This document shows positions 4,583 to 53,861 of a stretch of DNA of 64,000 nt, one piece after another. Under the pieces are notes generated by a model. The model did no database searches, was not told the origin of the DNA, and saw only the letters and a list, made by a program, of their open reading frames with translations. This DNA comes from Bugula neritina. Lineage: Eukaryota > Bryozoa > Gymnolaemata > Cheilostomatida > Bugulidae. The stretch covers positions 20,027,995 through 20,091,994 of the forward strand of contig OZ037765.1 of assembly GCA_964035545.1 (NCBI GenBank). The letters are read 5' to 3'. Position numbers and translations under genes: made by a program. Numbering within the stretch: position 1 is the first letter of the stretch; each line of letters opens with the position of its first letter.

Positions 4583-5989
4583 GTGCATTGCACATACCTG
4601 TTATGTAAATATATATTAGTTGTAAAAATAAAGAAGCTGTCAATGACACCATGATAACCTGTCTCTAACTTGAATACATGCAACCCATTAACTGTACTTC
4701 TCTCTAATCTAACAAAATTTATAAATTAAGCAAATTAATAAAAACTTAAGAAACTAGAATATGCAAGAGACTAAATATGATTGAAAAAGCTTAATACTTT
4801 ATAGGTTAGTTAGCACAAAACATTTTAGTAAATATTTCATAAATGGCACAAACTGTTGACTGTACTGTACTCCTGTACTGTAATATTACTTTTATTGCAG
4901 TACAGGAGTTGACAGCATGTTTAATACTTTCCAATATGTACAGCTGATACAAAAGATTTTACAAGTTTTATAATTTTGAGCTAGAAGCTATAAAATTTTG
5001 AAGTTGTAACAAATATGATAAATATTAATAATAATTTGTGTATACACATTGAGCATTTTGCTCTGGCACTTTTACAGTGATTTTTAGTGCATAAACAACA
5101 CATATCATATAATGAAGCCATAAGCAGTGCATGCTATATATAGGTCAAATGTTCAAATGCAGCACAGTGGTCATATTATCTAAAATTATACGTTATGTTA
5201 ATTGTGATGCCAGTTGTGTAAATTTATGTACATATGGTGCCTAAGGTGGAGCCATATGCAAATATGGAACACTAACACACTTCCAATGCTGAAGTGAGTT
5301 TTAACAAACACCTTTCTTATAAGCATGCATGGGATCTAGCAAGTAACTAGTTCTCTATGCTTGAACTAAGAAAGCATTAAAGAATTTGTAAAAAATTGTA
5401 TTTTATGATTATAACTGCCCTCTCACTTCGTTCATAATTAGACAAATCTAAATTAAAAACATATTTATTTGCAATGTAAAATTAAACTAATGATTTGAAA
5501 CATTCTAATGCAAGACTGCTCACGGCAATAGTATTTATTATTGAGCGTATAACAGCATATAATTATGTGAAAAAAACAGTCAAAAATTAGCTTTAACTTT
5601 TAATCACAATTGAGAATGCTACAATAAGGCATAGCAGCATTGGCTAAATAATAAAAACTTAAAAGATACTCCCAAATTTCAATCTATTATACTAATTAGG
5701 CAATTGTACCAAAAATTTCATTTTAAAATGTGAAGTTTAGATAGCGCAGGTTTGTATTTATTCTGAATAATTTAGGTACTTATAAACAAAAGGAAAATGC
5801 AACCTATTAGTAGCAAAATGACTAAAAACTTGCCAATTGATGAAAAATAAAAGCAATAAATACTTTTTTCAAAATTATTTCATAAAGTAGCTAAAATAAA
5901 ATAATTGAAAGTTGGTAATCGTAGTTTGACATCTGTATGTAAATATCTGCCCACTGAGGGTCACATCATGTTTGTTCCCATGTGTCTGC
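4583..5989. other. Intergenic, no gene seen
   Basis: This AT-rich stretch lies between the convergent vWA and esterase A genes. I see no exon-like ORF with splice sites. A short hairpin lies at about 4868-4911: ACTCCTGTACTG pairs with CAGTACAGGAGT around a loop of about 20 bases. Confidence 0.5.
4627..4632 (+). terminator. poly(A) signal of the vWA gene
   Basis: An AATAAA hexamer lies 45 bases after the stop codon of the vWA gene, a normal distance for a short 3' UTR. Confidence 0.6.
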
Positions 5990-44715: not shown

Positions 44716-47700
44716 ATGGTAAATACAGTAAATATTTTCATGATATTATGTTATAAAACTATTTTTGCTTTCTAATGAATAACGGTAATTGTAACTCAAA
44801 CTGTAAGACTAAGTCCAAGTGTTGGTGTAAGTCAAACTCAAATTAAAACTCTAAAAGTGCAGCATAACCATTGGGCTTGGCATTTGCATTTACTGATTTA
44901 GTTTTACAATTACTATTAGTATAAGAAGTACTAACTGTAATTCTAATCAATAACTTAGTGAGTCAGTAAAAATGAAATGACTGAAACTCCAAAAGCAAAA
45001 GTTAGGCTGGAACTGAAAGTGAAAATGCAACGCCAACTGAAAACTATCACTGTGATGGTAACCATGAGTGAATGACTGACAGTAAAACTAAAATTTAAAC
45101 TAGCCCTAGGTCTTCAACTTCAAGTATTCATAGTGAAGTAAGTTAAACTTAAATGATCAGTGAATGTGATACTCATACCAATCTACTTCTAGTTCTAGTG
45201 ATAATGCTCATGCTGATACTGATGGTGATAGTAATAGGCTACTAATAGTAATAGTGATACTTATGCTAATGATTATATGCTTAGCTTGACTTGCAACATG
45301 AACTTTTCAATTGGCATGGGCAGAACGAAGAGAAAGTCAAAGTGACACTTTTCACCTGTGACTTGACCTTGCAAAGAGTATAACTATAAGGAAAATCAAA
45401 CATTAATACTTCATTAGTCTTACCCTTACTCTTAGACTTGGTCACTTTTTAGTTCAGGCAATGCTTCATCACCATGAATGGCTGAAATTTAAGTATAAAG
45501 TATAAAAGATGCTTAGCAGCAAATGCATAGTTGCATCTTTGAATTGCTGGAGAACTTTAAATAATACTTGTCGAATTTTTCTTCACACTAAGCCACCCTG
45601 TTGGGTAGAAGGGGTGTGCCCCATTCTTAATCATGAGTTACATGTATGTACCTGTGGTCAGTAAAGATATATTTTTAAAAAAATAATGTACAGTGGATGC
45701 AAAGCAGGCCTGCTTAGCCTGTGTGTGGTAAGAGTGCAGTAAGGGACCGCGCTTTGGTTTACATATTTGAAAGATTTGTTTATATAAAACTCTTGACTTC
45801 ATGTTATCAATAAAATTAAAATAATTAATATATTATTAATGTTCAATAAGAAAATAATTTAACTTTTAAGGAGTGATTAAAGTTTTGAGAAAAAATTTGT
45901 ATCTGACAATATAATTTTGATGAAATCAAAAGGATTTGTGCTGGAAGAGCCTGTTGTAAACTGGCATATTTTTGCTAGCTCATCAATTTTCATTATCTAA
46001 CCATATCAGTATGTTAACAACTTTCTTACTATGTCAGATTTTTTCTTTACAACCATAGTTTTGATAATTCAGCAACCAGATGTAGTTTAATATATGTCCT
46101 GTAAATTCTTTAACTAGCTAAGCTACAGTAAAAACATTGCTTGTGACCTGAGAGGTTAAATAAATAGGGAAAACATAAATCGCATCTGTATTAATAAAGC
46201 AATAAAGAAAAAATGACGGATTGGTGATGCACCAGTTAAAGAATTCCTGACACACTTTACTTATATAGCATGAAAATATTCATCTATGTCTTAGCTATCA
46301 TTTTAACACTCTTTTAGGGTTTCAGGTCTAAACAATTTTGTTTTATAACAGTTTTAGTGCATGCATGTCCAAAAAACTTCGAGAATTTTTTTCGCCCTTC
46401 TGTGACGTATTACACCGCAGTTGCGAGAAATAGATGGAAACGCCGCCTGTAAGACATTCGGAAAATAAGTATAGGCTATATTTTCCGTTGCATGTAACCT
46501 TAGTTTTAGCATTTTTAATTTATCGGACGTCTGTCTAGTCCCCAATTAGTATTTTTTTGTGGAATTTAGGTTTTATTTCATAAACAAATTTCGCGGCAAT
46601 AAATACATAGCTACCAACTTACCGTGTCCGAGTCTGTGCAGTGTAATTGTGATAAAGATAAACCTAATACAGAAATAACATAAATACGATATCAATATGA
46701 ACATATCTGGCTCTGACGAAAAATACTTAGAGCACAGTGAGAATCGCAATGAGTATGACTATGACAATCACACTCACGCTGTCACTGAGATTTCTGAAGT
46801 AATGGGCTATCACTATCAGTTTGAGCCGTTTACGTATCAAGATGAAAATGGAGATGATAGTCATGACAAGGATTTTACTGTTACTGATGAGCAACAGGTG
46901 ATACTATTTATAATTTTACTGTATCAGTACGATTTAATTTTATAAACTATAGTGTTACTAATACCGTAATACTAATAGTAATACTAATACTAATAGTAAT
47001 ACTTTAACTTTAAGTTATAAGTATAAGCTAGTATAAGTTATAAATTATTATAATTATAATATTTCATTTTCATTTTGTAATCGTAATTCCAATGCTCAAT
47101 GCCAATGCTCGTATTGATCCTGGCTTAATTAGTTAATATAGCTGAGTTTTGTGCTACTAAAGCTTTAGAGCAAGCATGATATCAAATTACAAGCTAAATA
47201 TTTGATGATTGCTATCGGTTTATATAATATTATTAATAATAAAGTGATAATCATTAAATTTAATGATTACAAATTCCAGTCAAGTAATTAAATATTTGAT
47301 CAATACTAATTTTGTTATTACTACTACCAATACAGGTATTAGTATTAATTATTTGTAGTTAGATTTACCTGATAATTTAAGTCAAGGGAAAGACCGTATT
47401 TTTATAAATGCATAATAATGATAATTATTATTCACTTTTATTGTAATTGTGGTTATACCGATCCTTAACAAAATAAGTTAATCACATACATAATCATGTG
47501 AAACTTGCATTCACGATGATAGCATTTAGTATTTTATTTCTAAGCCCCCTATTTCTCTGAATTTCTGCTTTTATAGTATAACATATAGTACTAACAACAA
47601 TAAAATATTTTAAAATTTCTGAAAATTAGTTTATTTCATAGCAAAAATTATGAGTTTGTTTTAATATAAAAAATCTAATTAATTTTCAACTATAAATATA

Positions 47701-50700
47701 AAAATAGTTTGAACAGTAATGCAAACTTGGAATATTTTAAAACCCATGATTTTAAAGTATTTTCAAACTTCAGCCTCATTGGACTCAATTTTCAATACAA
47801 AGAAAAATACAGGAAACAAATTTAGACACAGTAATTAATGGACTTAATGTGGATGATACTGGTAATAACGTTTTTAGAAAAGCTTGTTTGTTTTGTAGAA
47901 AAATATAAGGCCAGCCACGGAGTGGTGCACTTGCCACCGCTGCCAAAATCAGCCTACAGTGGAACAGTCTGTTTGTTGCCGTGATCATGCTGCAAACCTT
48001 CGATTAGATAGCAGCATGGAATGTATAACACAGCACCCGGGAGTACAGCAATTGACGCAACCAGCTGTATTAGAAGTTGCATACAGCAGCTACCTGAGAT
48101 ATCATGGTTAGTCAATTGCTACTGTAGATCAGTAACTGTCATTGTTAGTTTTTCTAGATAGTCTTACTTGATTATTTAGCCAATCATTTATTTTGGTAGA
48201 TGATTTGTTTGATGAGAAGGCCCATTCTCTCAACACTAAAAAAAGGTTCTGCAGCTACCGGTTTTTGGTGTTCTGGCTGTTTCCAGATATTAAAAAGGGT
48301 GAGAGACGCCCTTTACCAGCTTGCTTATATGATTGGGTGCAAGCTACATTCCCCCCAACTGATGATGAGGAAGAATTTGCTGAATGGATGTTCAGCAAAT
48401 TCGTGTACAATGAAGATTTATGAACATTAACACTCTGGTGATTTTTAGTAGCAGTCAGTTGCTACTGCCTCTTGTAGTGTGTACAGCTTACTATGAGAAT
48501 AAACCTCATTATTTGCAATCTCCCTGACCTTTGAAATTAATTTACCGTTGAGTTTGAGTTGCAATATACTGTGAATATATATTGTGAATATACTTCAATA
48601 TGGTGACTATTTTTGCGCTGAACTTTTCAAGTGACTCTAAGATCATATTCTACAATATCTACATTTCAATGGAAACTGAGACTACAAGTAGATATATTGT
48701 CCAAATTTATTTTTGACACACCTTGAGGTGGAAAATTAAAAATATTATTTCCATTACACAAAAATATTTGGTTTTTTGTTGCATTAGAACATGCATTTTA
48801 AATAAAAATAAATATGGAGAAAAGCTATGAATTCAGTTTTTGAGCTAAGTGAACAATACTATTTCGCCATATTTCTATATACCAGCATTGAACAGCTTTG
48901 CTTCTAATCTTTTTCTGCATCCTTTTAGGTGTTTGCACATATTTGTTGTGTCCTATTCCTTTCTGTAGGCCCTTCTTTTCTGGCTTACGATGGAGAGCTG
49001 GTTTTTTTGTTTGACTTGGCAAAGCTCTAAAATATTATTATATATGAAGGTAACTGGAAAAGTATTATTGAAACAGCTGCAGAAAATCTCAATTGCTGTC
49101 TATATCATATTTCAATTTTATTGCTCAAGATCGCATTTTCAATATTATAATCCTTACAGAAAACCAGGGTCTGTTCTTTTTAACCAGCGAGCTTCTTTAG
49201 GTGTGATAGTGGCCGCCTGCTGACTTTGTTTCCGAGGAGTTAATGGAGTGCATCCAGTTGCACCCTCAGTTTCCACTAAATGAATAGTTGGGACTGCTGT
49301 TTTCTCTAAATGCAATCTAAAGAGTAAATCAAAGACAATGAATTTTTATTCTTTCAATAAGTGAACAATATTTACCATTAATTTTTACTGGTATTGATGA
49401 TGGGCACCATTACCAGTATCATACTCATAGCATGAGTATCAGTGCGTATGAATCATAATATTAATGGTATGTATCCAAGTGACTATGACACATTCTGATA
49501 ATCATAAGTCTTTCATATTATCGCCATTATAAATGAATTTCCTTACAATAATGGTTATCGTGTAAATCATAAATGCAAACTTGTACTTGCAAGTTTATGT
49601 CATAGTCACATGAAATTGAATCAACACGGTCATGACAATCCTATTGACTTATACCAACTTGTAGTAATACTTGATAGTTATAGTTATACTTATTGTTGAA
49701 AATCAACATTAAAAAAACTATCATTAGCCTATCGTCTAATTATATCACAATCACTAAGTCATTAGTCAGTATCACTATGACTATGACTATGAGTTTGAGT
49801 GAGTTATTCACTTACATGTTAATGAGTTTTGCTTTATACATGCCCATGTTTGTAAATTGTTCATCACCAAAATGAAAATGCTGAAAACACAAACGAGAGT
49901 TGTTATCAGGCAGAAAGTTTTTTCTTTTCGTATTGACAAACTTGGTCCATTTTTCACCACACGCAGTATCAGCAGGCCATTTAAACATGTGTTTTTCCTT
50001 GTACGAACACATTGCAGCTTCACACACTCTTCTTTTGCATTTGCCTTTAGAACTTGAAGCCATTCGTGTAGTCATGTCGACAGTAAGTGTAACTAGTAAT
50101 ATAGGTAATAAGTTTGTTCATTAGAGTCCAATGGCAATATGAATATGAAATCTAATTTATATAGATAGCGAGCGACTACTACTAGTAGTAGTACTACTAG
50201 GCACAGGTTATATTGGTAATATCCGGTTACGGTAATGATAATCTATTTGGAAGCGTAAGTTACATAATTGAATATGCAATTATTTGTAATGTTTTATAGA
50301 AAAGTTTACCACTCGTTGGATTTACCTAATTTCTTTCAACAATATCGCGTTATCGCCGTACTTAGCCACCCGTTCTAATTACATCGTGAGGGTGAGGCTA
50401 TTTCATTTTTCCGATGCTCAAAATTTCTAACGGAAGTAACTTTAGCTCTTAATATCAATAATAAAATGGTATCATTTGTTTTTTTCATTGAGCCTTAGTT
50501 GTACTCTGTGTTTTAAAATTTATGTCAGTTTAGTGATTTATCTGTGTGTTGCAGTGGCTAAAAATAAAACGCTGTGAAAGTATGCAATTATTACTATTAG
50601 TTATATAGTAACTAGGACTCGAAGCAGACCGGAAACCGGCGTAATACGTGTGCACTGAGAGCTTAGAAATCCGAAAGTTTTCTGGACATGCATGCACTAA

Positions 50701-53700
50701 TCTTGTTATAAAACAAAATAGTCTAGCCATCCACCCTCAAAGGGGTGGTCTAGTGATAGCTAAGATATAGATGAATATTTTCGTGCTATATAAGTAAAGT
50801 GTGTCAGGGATTCTTTAACTTTGCAAATTTTAAAACTGCACATTGTACAAGGATTAGTTTCTAGTACTAAGGGCCTGCAACATTGCCAGTCACCAAAAAC
50901 AAAAGTTGTAAAATATAAAAACCAGTTACAATTTAATGCTAAGTTAGTAACGTCTCGTGTATTTGTAAGATTTAGCTACATCACTTCATTCTCAAAATAA
51001 ATGGCATATTTTAAGCTTAATTTATTGTGCTTAAATCTCATGTATGTAGCTTTACGTTTAATCGGTGTATAGGTATTGAACTACCTACTATGTAAAAATA
51101 TGAATATGTTATCATTTTCATGTCCATATTTTAGTATTTTTGTGTGAATCAGTAGGCTAATTAATTTTTTGGTCATGATTTTAATACGACTTGAATCATA
51201 TTGCATTGTGTATTGCATTTGCATAAGTGGATGTTGCTGACATTGTTTACATACTGTGGTCAACCTAAACAGCTTTTATTTTTAACATTCCCATCAAGTG
51301 TTCAATCAATATTTTAGGCTCCACCATGTTATGGCGATTTAGGGAAAAAGGCAAGTGATCTTCACACAAAGAACTTCCGTGAGTGAAATCATGTTCTATT
51401 TTGTCAATTTTGCTTTTTTGTAAGACAGTGCTCCCCTCCGTAGCTCACAGAACCCTTTCTTACGAAGTTCCATAGGTCACAAGAAAGGTTTGCTCTCCCC
51501 CCCTCCCCTATTGTGTGTATAGAGACAAAATGGCTGAATTTAACGGATCTGTGAATTAAGTCTAATATTCTTCTATGTCACAAATTAAGGTTTCGGGATC
51601 TCCAGCTTAAAGAGATACAGAGGGAGCACTGTATTTAATAGTTTATCCATTTATGTTCTTATTTCTCAACTGTGATCACTTGACAAACCTGTCATTTCCT
51701 GCAGTCAACATACCTGTGCGTTTAGTTACATTGACATGTGAAGAATTTAGTGTTTAATAAGATCGTAAGATTGCTATAATTTCTAGCTTTGCTTGCTCTG
51801 AATTCATGATACTTTGTCATTATTATATGCAGAATGTGCCATCATAAAAAGCTTTCTTTTGCTTGTCTACCTACTCACTACATTGTTTTAGACCCCGGAA
51901 TGGTAAAGTTTGAAGCTAAAACCAAGACGCAAAGTGGCATAAAGCTGGCTACAACTGGGCAGTCCAATATTGAAAGTGGAAAGACTTTTGGTTCTATGGA
52001 ACTTACATACAGCTGTTCAGATTATGGTAAAATCTGATGTAATTGTATTAACCAATAGTATTGAACCAGTGGCTGCTAAGCAAATACTTGTATTATATTT
52101 AATATTGAATCTGTTTTAAAAGCTTTTTTGCTCTGTGTAGTTTGCTTTGGACACTTTTCAATAGAATGATTGCATTTAAAAAATTCTTAGTAATTTGCAA
52201 AACTGTGTCATACTCAGAAGTCATAGTTTTAATATATGTCTTTTTTTTTGTTTCAATTATGAATAAATCCTTTAGGTCTGAAGTATGTGGAGAAATGGAA
52301 TACAGATAATCTGCTGACCATAGACACGTCCATTGAAGACAAGATACTGAAAGGTCTGAAGACTTCGTTTATCACCTCATATAATGTATCAACCACTAAG
52401 AAAAAGGGCACTATCAAGGCCAGCTACAAACACGACTATGTCAATCTCAGCACCGATGTTGATTTGGACTACGCAGGTCCCACCATAAAGGGATCAGCGG
52501 TCTGTGGGTGAGAATCGGTTACTGTTTCTTTCAGCCATTTGCTTTTGCTCAGAATCAGTCTGTATGCTGACGCAACTCAACATGCAAACTGTAGTTACAT
52601 GGAGCCATACCATGCACTCAAATGGTTTCCACAAATGTGCAGCTACTGACTACTAGTTTACTCAAACATTTTTCAAGTTGTACAGCAAGTAGGATTGTTA
52701 CAAAGCTATCAAGCCTACAGCATTTATAAAATGACTAATGGAACTGCTATCAGTGCCATCTTATAGACTGTTGGGCCGTGGGTAAAATATATACTGTTTC
52801 TGCTAGGTACAAAGGTTGGTTGGCTGGCTACCAGGTGGCGTTGAATGCCTCACAGAATAAACTTACAGCTAATAATTTGACATTGGGCTATGATGCCGGA
52901 GACCATGTGTTCAACGCAGCTGTGTAAGTGTTATCTTCTCTCTTTGTAACATGATTCACCTCACTATTGAAATAAAAGTTCCTCTGCTTATTTTTTTCTG
53001 TTATTGTGTTTTGTTGTCTTGTTTTTTTTATATTATGTCATGATATCATTTGGATCGGTTTTAGAAATAACGGCAGCGATTTTGCTGGCTCTTACTACCA
53101 TAAACTGAGCTCCAGCATGGAAGGAGGCCTTCAGGTCGGCTGGTCATCTGCCACCAACTCCTCTCAGGCTAGCCTGGCAGCCAAATATAGCCTTTCTCCC
53201 GACACCTCAATGAAAGTAAAGGGTGCCATGAATGGCGAAGTTGGACTCTCTCTTCAGCAGAAAGTAGCAGACTGTGAGTATTAGTTTATATATTTACAGC
53301 AGCTGGTGTGTAACAACTTCTAAATACAGCTGAGTATTATAAATTTGGACAATGATTGATGATAGGGTCGAGAAGGGTGTTAACTGTTACTGTATTTCCC
53401 TTACGTGGGCTACCTTCCCATTTCATAACTGAAAGGTTTGTGCAATAAGTGCAGTTAAAGCTTGTCATATAGGTGACATTTTAATTAGATTCTAGGTCTT
53501 GTCCCCAGCTCACGTGTTTATTTCATGCCGAATGTGTCAACAATAAATTGCATGTTTAAAATAGTATAACAATATAATATAGCCAGTTATAAAATCATAC
53601 AATTGATACAAAATCTCACAATAGGGGAAGATGAAAAAATATTTTTTTAACCTAAATATATAAATTATGTACATATTATGTATAGAATTAATTAAATATT

Positions 53701-53861
53701 TAACCTCCTGTGTTGTACTCATACATCCCTTATATTTAAGAATAATATAGTCGTCACTTCTTTTCACAGGTCTCACTCTTACTCTCTCCAGTGTCCTGGA
53801 TGCCAAGAACTTCTTTGCTGGTGGACATAGAGTTGGCATGTGCCTTGACTTTGAACAATAA
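44716..53861 (+). CDS. VDAC: Voltage-dependent anion channel (mitochondrial porin)
   Basis: Coding exons: 44716-44718 (ATG only), 51318-51378, 51892-52026, 52276-52507, 52807-52923, 53065-53273 and 53770-53861 (TAA). They give 282 aa, the usual VDAC length. The protein begins M/APPCYGDLGKKASD, the N-terminal helix pattern of VDACs. It continues with YVEKWNTDN, LKGLK (the GLK motif of this family), GWLAGYQV and a C-terminal LDAKNFFAGGHRVGM strand. It forms the 19-strand beta-barrel of the outer mitochondrial membrane that passes metabolites and nucleotides. The ATG/GTAAAT junction matches the phase-0 acceptor at 51317, and the 5' UTR before it (about 44540-44715) has no other ATG. Intron 1 (6.6 kb) hosts a TTAA-flanked element with two genes. 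Confidence 0.93.
45170..45290. repeat. Degenerate GTGATA/ACTAAT-type simple repeat
   Basis: Degenerate units of six bases such as GTGATA, ACTGAT and AGTAAT run through this stretch in VDAC intron 1. A similar array of TAATAC/TAATAG units lies at about 46950-47000, inside the TTAA element. Confidence 0.6.
46697..48423 (+). CDS. Stand-alone P2X7-type C-terminal (ballast) domain protein
   Basis: Exons 46697-46897, 47899-48106 and 48200-48423 (TGA) give 210 aa. Residues 1-67 are acidic and Asp/Glu/His rich. From residue 76 the pattern WCTCHRC, then VCCRDH (93-97), CITQHPG (109-115), FCSYRF (153-158) and LPACLYDW (175-182) matches the zinc-binding cysteine-rich C-terminal domain of vertebrate P2X7 receptors. 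There is no P2X channel part: no transmembrane segment is seen. Single-domain versions are known from invertebrates, but their role is not established. The gene is convergent with a THAP gene inside a TTAA-flanked unit. An AATAAA lies near 48499. Family assignment is firm; function is unknown. Confidence 0.88.
48825..50075 (-). CDS. THAP-type zinc-finger protein
   Basis: The minus-strand exons 50075-49816, 49316-49158 and 49026-48825 (TAG) give 206 aa with consistent phases. The THAP C2CH finger is C18-x4-C23-x39-C63-x2-H66, with the conserved Trp43, a FKWP motif (31-34) and Phe67. The signature AVPT that closes THAP domains is at residues 94-97, right after the first splice junction. The rest is basic (KPALHRKPEKKG, RMQKKIRSK). 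THAP domains bind DNA and occur in transcription factors and in P-element and Kolobok transposases. No catalytic domain follows here. It could be a DNA-binding accessory protein of the surrounding element (inference). An alternative start is Met5. Confidence 0.9.

Follow-up and report, generated by a model that had tools for sequence, protein, structure and literature searches.

The Bugula neritina (Bryozoa) sequence analyzed here, a window of 64,000 nucleotides (GenBank assembly GCA_964035545.1, contig OZ037765.1, positions 20,027,995 to 20,091,994 of the forward strand), contains at 46236..50818 a mobile element of 4,583 bp, TTAA included at each end, which was confirmed as real, young and well delimited. 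The element is very probably a recently mobilized, non-autonomous derivative of a Kol0-type Kolobok DNA transposon, formed by internal deletion. An earlier note on this DNA had described it as a transposon, or a non-autonomous derivative with an autonomous partner elsewhere, that carries the P2X7 ballast domain. The derivative is upheld, and it is Kolobok-like in its TTAA, its 5'-RR/YY-3' termini and its KolX gene; an autonomous partner is putative, no complete copy of the family having been detected. Coordinates without a contig label refer to the window, C1 to C7 are contigs of the 215.8-Mb assembly, and L-numbers denote individual loci or copies.

TTAA is found at 46236-46239 and 50815-50818. 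The left (46236..46296, + strand) and right (50758..50818, - strand) terminal inverted repeats, each of 61 bases including TTAA, paired at 58 of 61 positions when recomputed, in agreement with the TTAA-flanked unit previously proposed. A weaker repeat extends inwards to 46379 on the left and from 50675 on the right, giving arms of about 146 nt with 85% pairing. Inside TTAA the termini of the window copy are AG...CT, following the 5'-RR...YY-3' rule that distinguishes Kolobok from piggyBac (PMC9587614), and an identity as piggyBac was rejected for this reason. The ends were read in 21 copies, the window copy and 20 fetched ones, and all 21 had TTAA at the start and at the end with differing flanking bases, as expected of a Kolobok target-site duplication. 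The spacing pattern of TTAA across the whole genome was uninformative.

The interior is occupied by two convergent genes of three exons each, and both spliced frames, with GT-AG introns, were recovered as the earlier note had them. The KolX (P2X7-ballast) gene, on the + strand, encodes 210 amino acids in exon 1 (46697..46897), exon 2 (47899..48106), which carries the cysteine motif WCxCxxC..CC..CIT, and exon 3 (48200..48423, stop included), which carries FCSYR..LPAC. Exons 2 and 3, in a query with one extra residue at the exon junction, matched the Pfam family P2RX7_C (PF20478) with 44.4 bits (E 2.4e-11), and the whole protein matched residues 470-591 of a solved P2X7 structure (PDB 6u9v; E 1.6e-4), which substantiates the ballast-domain gene. 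In the structure alignment the WCxCxxC, CIT and LPxC motifs were aligned; the CC pair is present in both proteins and was positioned differently by the aligner. No P2X channel domain was found, the Pfam scan of exons 2 and 3 giving P2RX7_C only and the best PDB match lying within P2X7 residues 470-591. Judged from these matches, the gene appears to be the second gene of the Kol0 lineage, a KolX with the ballast fold. A whole-genome search with the P2RX7_C profile gave no match at the element or at its 14 controls, probably because an intron cuts the match in two and the spliced protein is required. Protein searches with KolX returned only one and two short unnamed relatives, so that its occurrence outside the B. 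neritina genome is taken from published work (PMC9587614).

Two further sets of KolX-like sequences were seen in the genome. Among the matches listed, six lie about 1 kb apart on one strand at C6:12940873-12946177, matching at 45-49% across the latter half of the ballast domain; they may represent host genes for ballast proteins arranged in tandem. KolX exon-3 fragments form a large and older group of at least about 85 rows of matches (counted by eye), most of them listed with one in-frame TGA, which suggests multiplication of a broken master.

The second gene lies on the - strand (50075-49816, 49316-49158, 49026-48825) and has a product of 206 amino acids. Exon 1 carries a THAP domain (PF05485, 24.8 bits, slightly above the cut-off of 23.9). 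Exon 2 contains AVPTIH, which resembles the AVPTIF box described for Kolobok transposases (PMC6004289), so that the THAP domain and box of a Kolobok transposase N-terminus are both present. The open frame of exon 3 closes at a stop that is perhaps within what is intron in longer copies. Between 46236 and 50818 no DDE exons were found, confirming the absence noted before, and the window copy is therefore called a derivative and not a complete Kolobok.

A sister copy with the same ends, L056 (7,427 bp), has an intergenic stretch 2.85 kb longer than that of the window copy. On the THAP strand this extra stretch, located at the deletion point of the window copy, contains open frames with TTDRH, FDTWH and SELESFHA, which were taken by eye as the catalytic core by comparison with the locus L072 and with the D/CxxH signature (PMC9587614). 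L056 thus has the second-D, DxWH and E motifs and lacks the first-D exon; its reading, also by eye, stops within the exon preceding the first catalytic D and picks up again beyond. Of the longer copies with a DDE open reading frame anticipated by the earlier note, one therefore exists as far as DDE exons go, L056 being without the exon of the first catalytic D.

L072 (C6:5892900-5900700) belongs to a related family and has KolX convergent with an exon series, in the same layout as L056. These exons carry THAP, an AVPSIRF box, GDGRCDSPGH, TDRH, FDTWH and SELEAFHA, and hence all four D/D/DxWH/E motifs as read by eye; when joined, they exceeded the Pfam cut-offs for a Mutator-like transposase (1.2e-16), DDE_Tnp_ISL3 and THAP. 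The L072 transposase was 58% identical to L056 segments over 66 residues (E 5e-18), and in a single comparison the window THAP protein was 32% identical to its N-terminus over 109 columns (E 2e-12). Its homologues numbered 391 proteins, and several of the 120 matches listed, in fishes and lancelet for example, fuse THAP with PF20700; the best named relative is a Bugula neritina protein (89% over 62% of the query). Since L056 and L072 continue into DDE exons and the homologues fuse THAP with DDE, the THAP gene of the window copy is the front end of a transposase gene. The THAP gene of the earlier note accordingly keeps its domain and loses its independence. Between families, KolX proteins share 64% amino-acid identity over 141 codons, with pN of 0.24 and pS of 0.94 (saturated) for nonsynonymous and synonymous differences per site, values that point to strong constraint. 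A genome-wide THAP profile search gave 32 matches, the C6 locus included. First-D exons, searched for with the L072 exons, were found only at three related-family loci (C6:5896192, C5:13493885 and C1:11886025), that is, L072 itself and the Kolobok loci C5:13491353-13494547 and C1:11885632-11887043. The exons of L072 look complete, and it may be a transposase source.

The left end occurs at least 27 times in the assembly at 89-100% identity, a lower bound given that 40 of 313 candidates were scored. A single occurrence of the 61-bp ends, which the earlier note had named as fatal to its proposal, was thus not observed, and further copies bordered by TTAA and holding both genes, which it had counted as support, do exist. 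Six left ends, that of the window included, are identical over 161 bases. Six copies have the same deletion junction as the window copy and, in columns free of gaps, about 99.5% identity to it. The tree does not separate two of the six, L058 and L059, although they lie on different contigs. Movement was therefore recent. A relative on C2 of the L060 insertion site is unoccupied and continuous across the junction (166/182 bases, 91%); it could be found because L060 is inserted in or beside repeated DNA. The left flank of L060 (C1:32798750-32799043) shows this repeated DNA, part of it retroelement-like by eye.

Three long copies were also considered. The 12-kb copy at C5:11696106-11708416 (L064, partly read) has 7.5 kb inserted at element position ~1014, and no transposase match was found at it or at the 12-kb copy C1:34836506-34849095. 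The 8.0-kb copy L071 was rejected as a complete element, its extra length being like a long terminal repeat (LTR) retrotransposon and its remainder a gene-losing deletion structure; L071 (C5:11650124-11658766) is an older copy in which the LTR-like retrotransposon, with polyprotein motifs recognized by eye, is nested.

The internal deletions were compared in 20 gene-bearing copies, leaving out L069 (1.16 kb, no genes), L062 (left end only), L064 and L071; C7:9003065, C4:13249484, C1:34848938 and several places with a right end only were not classed. Breakpoints were measured against L056 from BLAST alignments; MAFFT put some deletion ends wrongly. DDE exons are lacking in 19 of the 20 copies, and the stretch between the genes is short. 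Class A has 7 copies, the window copy among them, with breakpoints at 2427/5274; in the window its junction is at 48654..48656, with a 3-bp overlap and 2.85 kb, including the DDE exons of L056, gone. Class B also has 7 copies (breakpoints about 2478/5034), and classes C, D, E, F and G have one copy each, D with a second gap. The main junctions show overlaps of 1-7 bp. As classes A and B each occupy 7 sites without DDE exons, they have multiplied without a transposase of their own, which is what mobilization in trans predicts.

Deletions B, C and D all fall inside deletion F, which groups among the B copies in the tree (support 97 with L065) and may be a B deletion that has widened. Deletions B and E fall inside deletion A; in the tree, however, A stands with C and D and not in the clade formed by L056 and classes B, E, F and G (support 99); on this placement, the tree being the sole ground, class A was judged a separate event. 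In the remaining pairs neither deletion encloses the other. Gene conversion aside, A, B, C, D, E and G are apparently six separate deletions. All six removed the DDE exons and kept THAP exons 1-3, and KolX was kept as well, except that G is short of roughly the final 12 codons. Genes were lost in three structures: L069, L071 and C4:13249237-13249636 (~0.4 kb, end positions only). L077, one copy of the older KolX-fragment group, matches L072 as far as 1764 and resumes at 5650, the DDE stretch lacking. A 2-base gap in KolX common to L057, L065 and L066 was considered as the mark of a broken copy that had multiplied; this was dropped, for the gap lies within a GAGAGA run and does not follow the tree, so that recurrent slippage is possible.

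The history that best fits these data starts from a parental element in which KolX was convergent with an intron-rich THAP-DDE transposase gene, the layout seen in L056 (one exon missing) and, for the related family, in L072. Loss of 2.85 kb would have stripped the window copy of its DDE exons, with KolX, three exons on the THAP side and both ends remaining. Cut-and-paste into TTAA would then take place when transposase from another copy or individual acts on these ends. The Drosophila P-element KP repressor and other internally deleted transposons are deletion derivatives that keep the THAP DNA-binding end without the catalytic core. The window copy resembles them in this and in its short junction overlaps, and, purely by inference, binding of the ends by its truncated THAP protein may make that protein a KP-like repressor; the copy differs in keeping a second gene, KolX, and any repressor role is putative. 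Miniature inverted-repeat transposable elements (MITEs) are short and gene-free, and the window derivative, with its two genes, differs from T2-MITE in this respect. T2-MITE and other Xenopus Koloboks (PMC6004289) are similar in being Kolobok relatives moved by transposase from elsewhere.

Several observations weigh against this history. No complete transposase of the element's own family was detected: L056 itself is short of the exon with the first D, and its DDE segments have 32-77% identity to the others found in the genome, so any current source of transposase is putative. No L056 piece exceeded a Pfam cut-off, the best being MULE with 14.6 bits against 27.6 required. The ends of L072 could not be placed, since the best pair of TTAA 24-mers matched at 17 of 24 positions. 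The unoccupied site on C2 has CTCGA in place of the CTTAA of the inserted site, with 3 bases fewer beside it, and thus does not offer a clean single TTAA.

The frequency of deletions confined to the DDE part could mean that KolX and the truncated THAP gene form a selected unit, KolX acting in cis or as an accessory and THAP as a repressor; we regard this as possible, though rather unlikely. In its favor, the six deletions taken as separate (A, B, C, D, E and G) spare THAP exons 1-3 and, but for its end in G, KolX, and six gene-sparing outcomes out of nine have a chance of ~7e-5 if breakpoints taking out the DDE core are uniformly distributed. L077, from an older related group, likewise lacks the DDE stretch. 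However, the gene-sparing criterion was chosen after the data had been seen, and the sample consisted of the best-scoring ends; breakpoint hotspots, gene conversion and ascertainment (40/313 candidates scored) could each contribute, and A is set apart from B and E by the tree alone. The recurrent gene-sparing deletions are therefore treated as a lead.

Variation among the 20 copies, counted with gapped codons skipped in each copy, bears on the same question. THAP had 26 replacement or stop variants and 17 silent ones (17/43 synonymous; pN/pS 0.39), a mild skew to synonymous change that would suit a selected unit; its p value was 0.003 from unadjusted site counts but rose to 0.07 under a guessed adjustment for transitions. 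KolX, on the other hand, had 40 replacement or stop variants against 10 silent ones (pN/pS 0.92), which looks like neutral drift. Subgroup ratios were widely scattered (KolX 0.27 and 1.82; THAP 1.54 and 0.29), and only 11 of 20 copies have an intact KolX, 11 of 20 an intact THAP and 6 of 20 both. Variable sites were somewhat rarer in exons (7.0-7.8%) than outside them (11.1%).

A stronger form of this idea, that a transposase-less, self-regulating unit with a THAP repressor and a cis-acting KolX spreads better, and that exactly the catalytic exons are repeatedly shed for that reason, seems to us less likely still. If true, KolX would be functional on its own element, with a bearing on the role of the ballast domain before its uptake by P2X7.

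Movement of a two-gene transposon without any DDE transposase, with THAP and ballast proteins acting jointly in a new way as the earlier note had suggested, is highly improbable. It would accommodate the lack of DDE exons in 19 of 20 gene-bearing copies and the multiplication of classes A and B in that state, but the THAP gene is a truncated transposase gene continued into DDE exons in L056 and L072, homologues fuse THAP with DDE, and a shorter gene-less structure with both ends exists (L069). A domesticated host pair of KolX and THAP genes without a transposon, which the intact spliced frames of the window copy could suggest, was rejected as scarcely conceivable in view of the copy number, the near-identical copies with TTAA ends and differing flanks, and the related unoccupied site.

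As a Kol0-type derivative, the element can be set beside published systems. The Kol0 lineage (Kolobok-1_XT type, with a DDD/E transposase and KolX; PMC9587614) shares with it the TTAA duplication, the 5'-RR/YY-3' ends, a THAP-bearing transposase gene, here a remnant, and a KolX with the ballast cysteines. It differs in that the window copy is without DDE exons; the convergent gene order was observed here, the order in published families not having been compared. With ballast/ZCD proteins and the P2X7 C-terminus (PMC7016195) it shares the WCxCxxC, CC, CIT and LPxC motifs and the match to 6u9v residues 470-591, whereas here the domain is a stand-alone transposon accessory protein with no P2X channel part matched.

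Kojima & Bao 2022 (PMC9587614) attribute the ballast fold to the KolX protein of Kol0 elements, derive P2X7 from the joining of a P2X4-like gene to KolX, and see in Nanor a likely domesticated KolX. The ballast domains that the earlier note would look for in Kolobok families are thus reported in that work. The note's proposal that the P2X7 fusion came about through mobile elements is sound but not new, the link between Kolobok and ballast domain and the origin of P2X7 from it being already published there. Rump et al. 2020 (PMC7016195) described the ballast domain across animals, and the words 'transpos' and 'THAP' have 0 occurrences in the main text of that paper. In the open literature, no description was found of Koloboks without a transposase that retain KolX and THAP (Repbase and subscription papers were outside the search). 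The present data give independent whole-genome support, in a bryozoan, for the P2X7 ballast domain being a Kolobok accessory protein. In a young multicopy family with several deletion classes, KolX function could be tested genetically, through an excess of KolX-sparing deletions and action in cis. With the interpretation otherwise largely published, the recurrent deletions that spare KolX and the THAP exons are the main curiosity left.

The host gene beside the element, and no part of it, encodes VDAC, with coding exons at 51318..53855 on the + strand (tblastn and the Porin_3 profile). The earlier note had placed the element in a VDAC intron; this is not supported for an intron between coding exons, as all VDAC probe matches (tblastn, E up to 10) lie to its right. 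The element could still be inserted in an intron of the VDAC 5' untranslated region, being about 0.5 kb upstream of the first recognizable coding exon. That exon match, at 51318, is weak (20 residues, 55%, E 0.011), and the next is at 51897 (E 1.6e-6).

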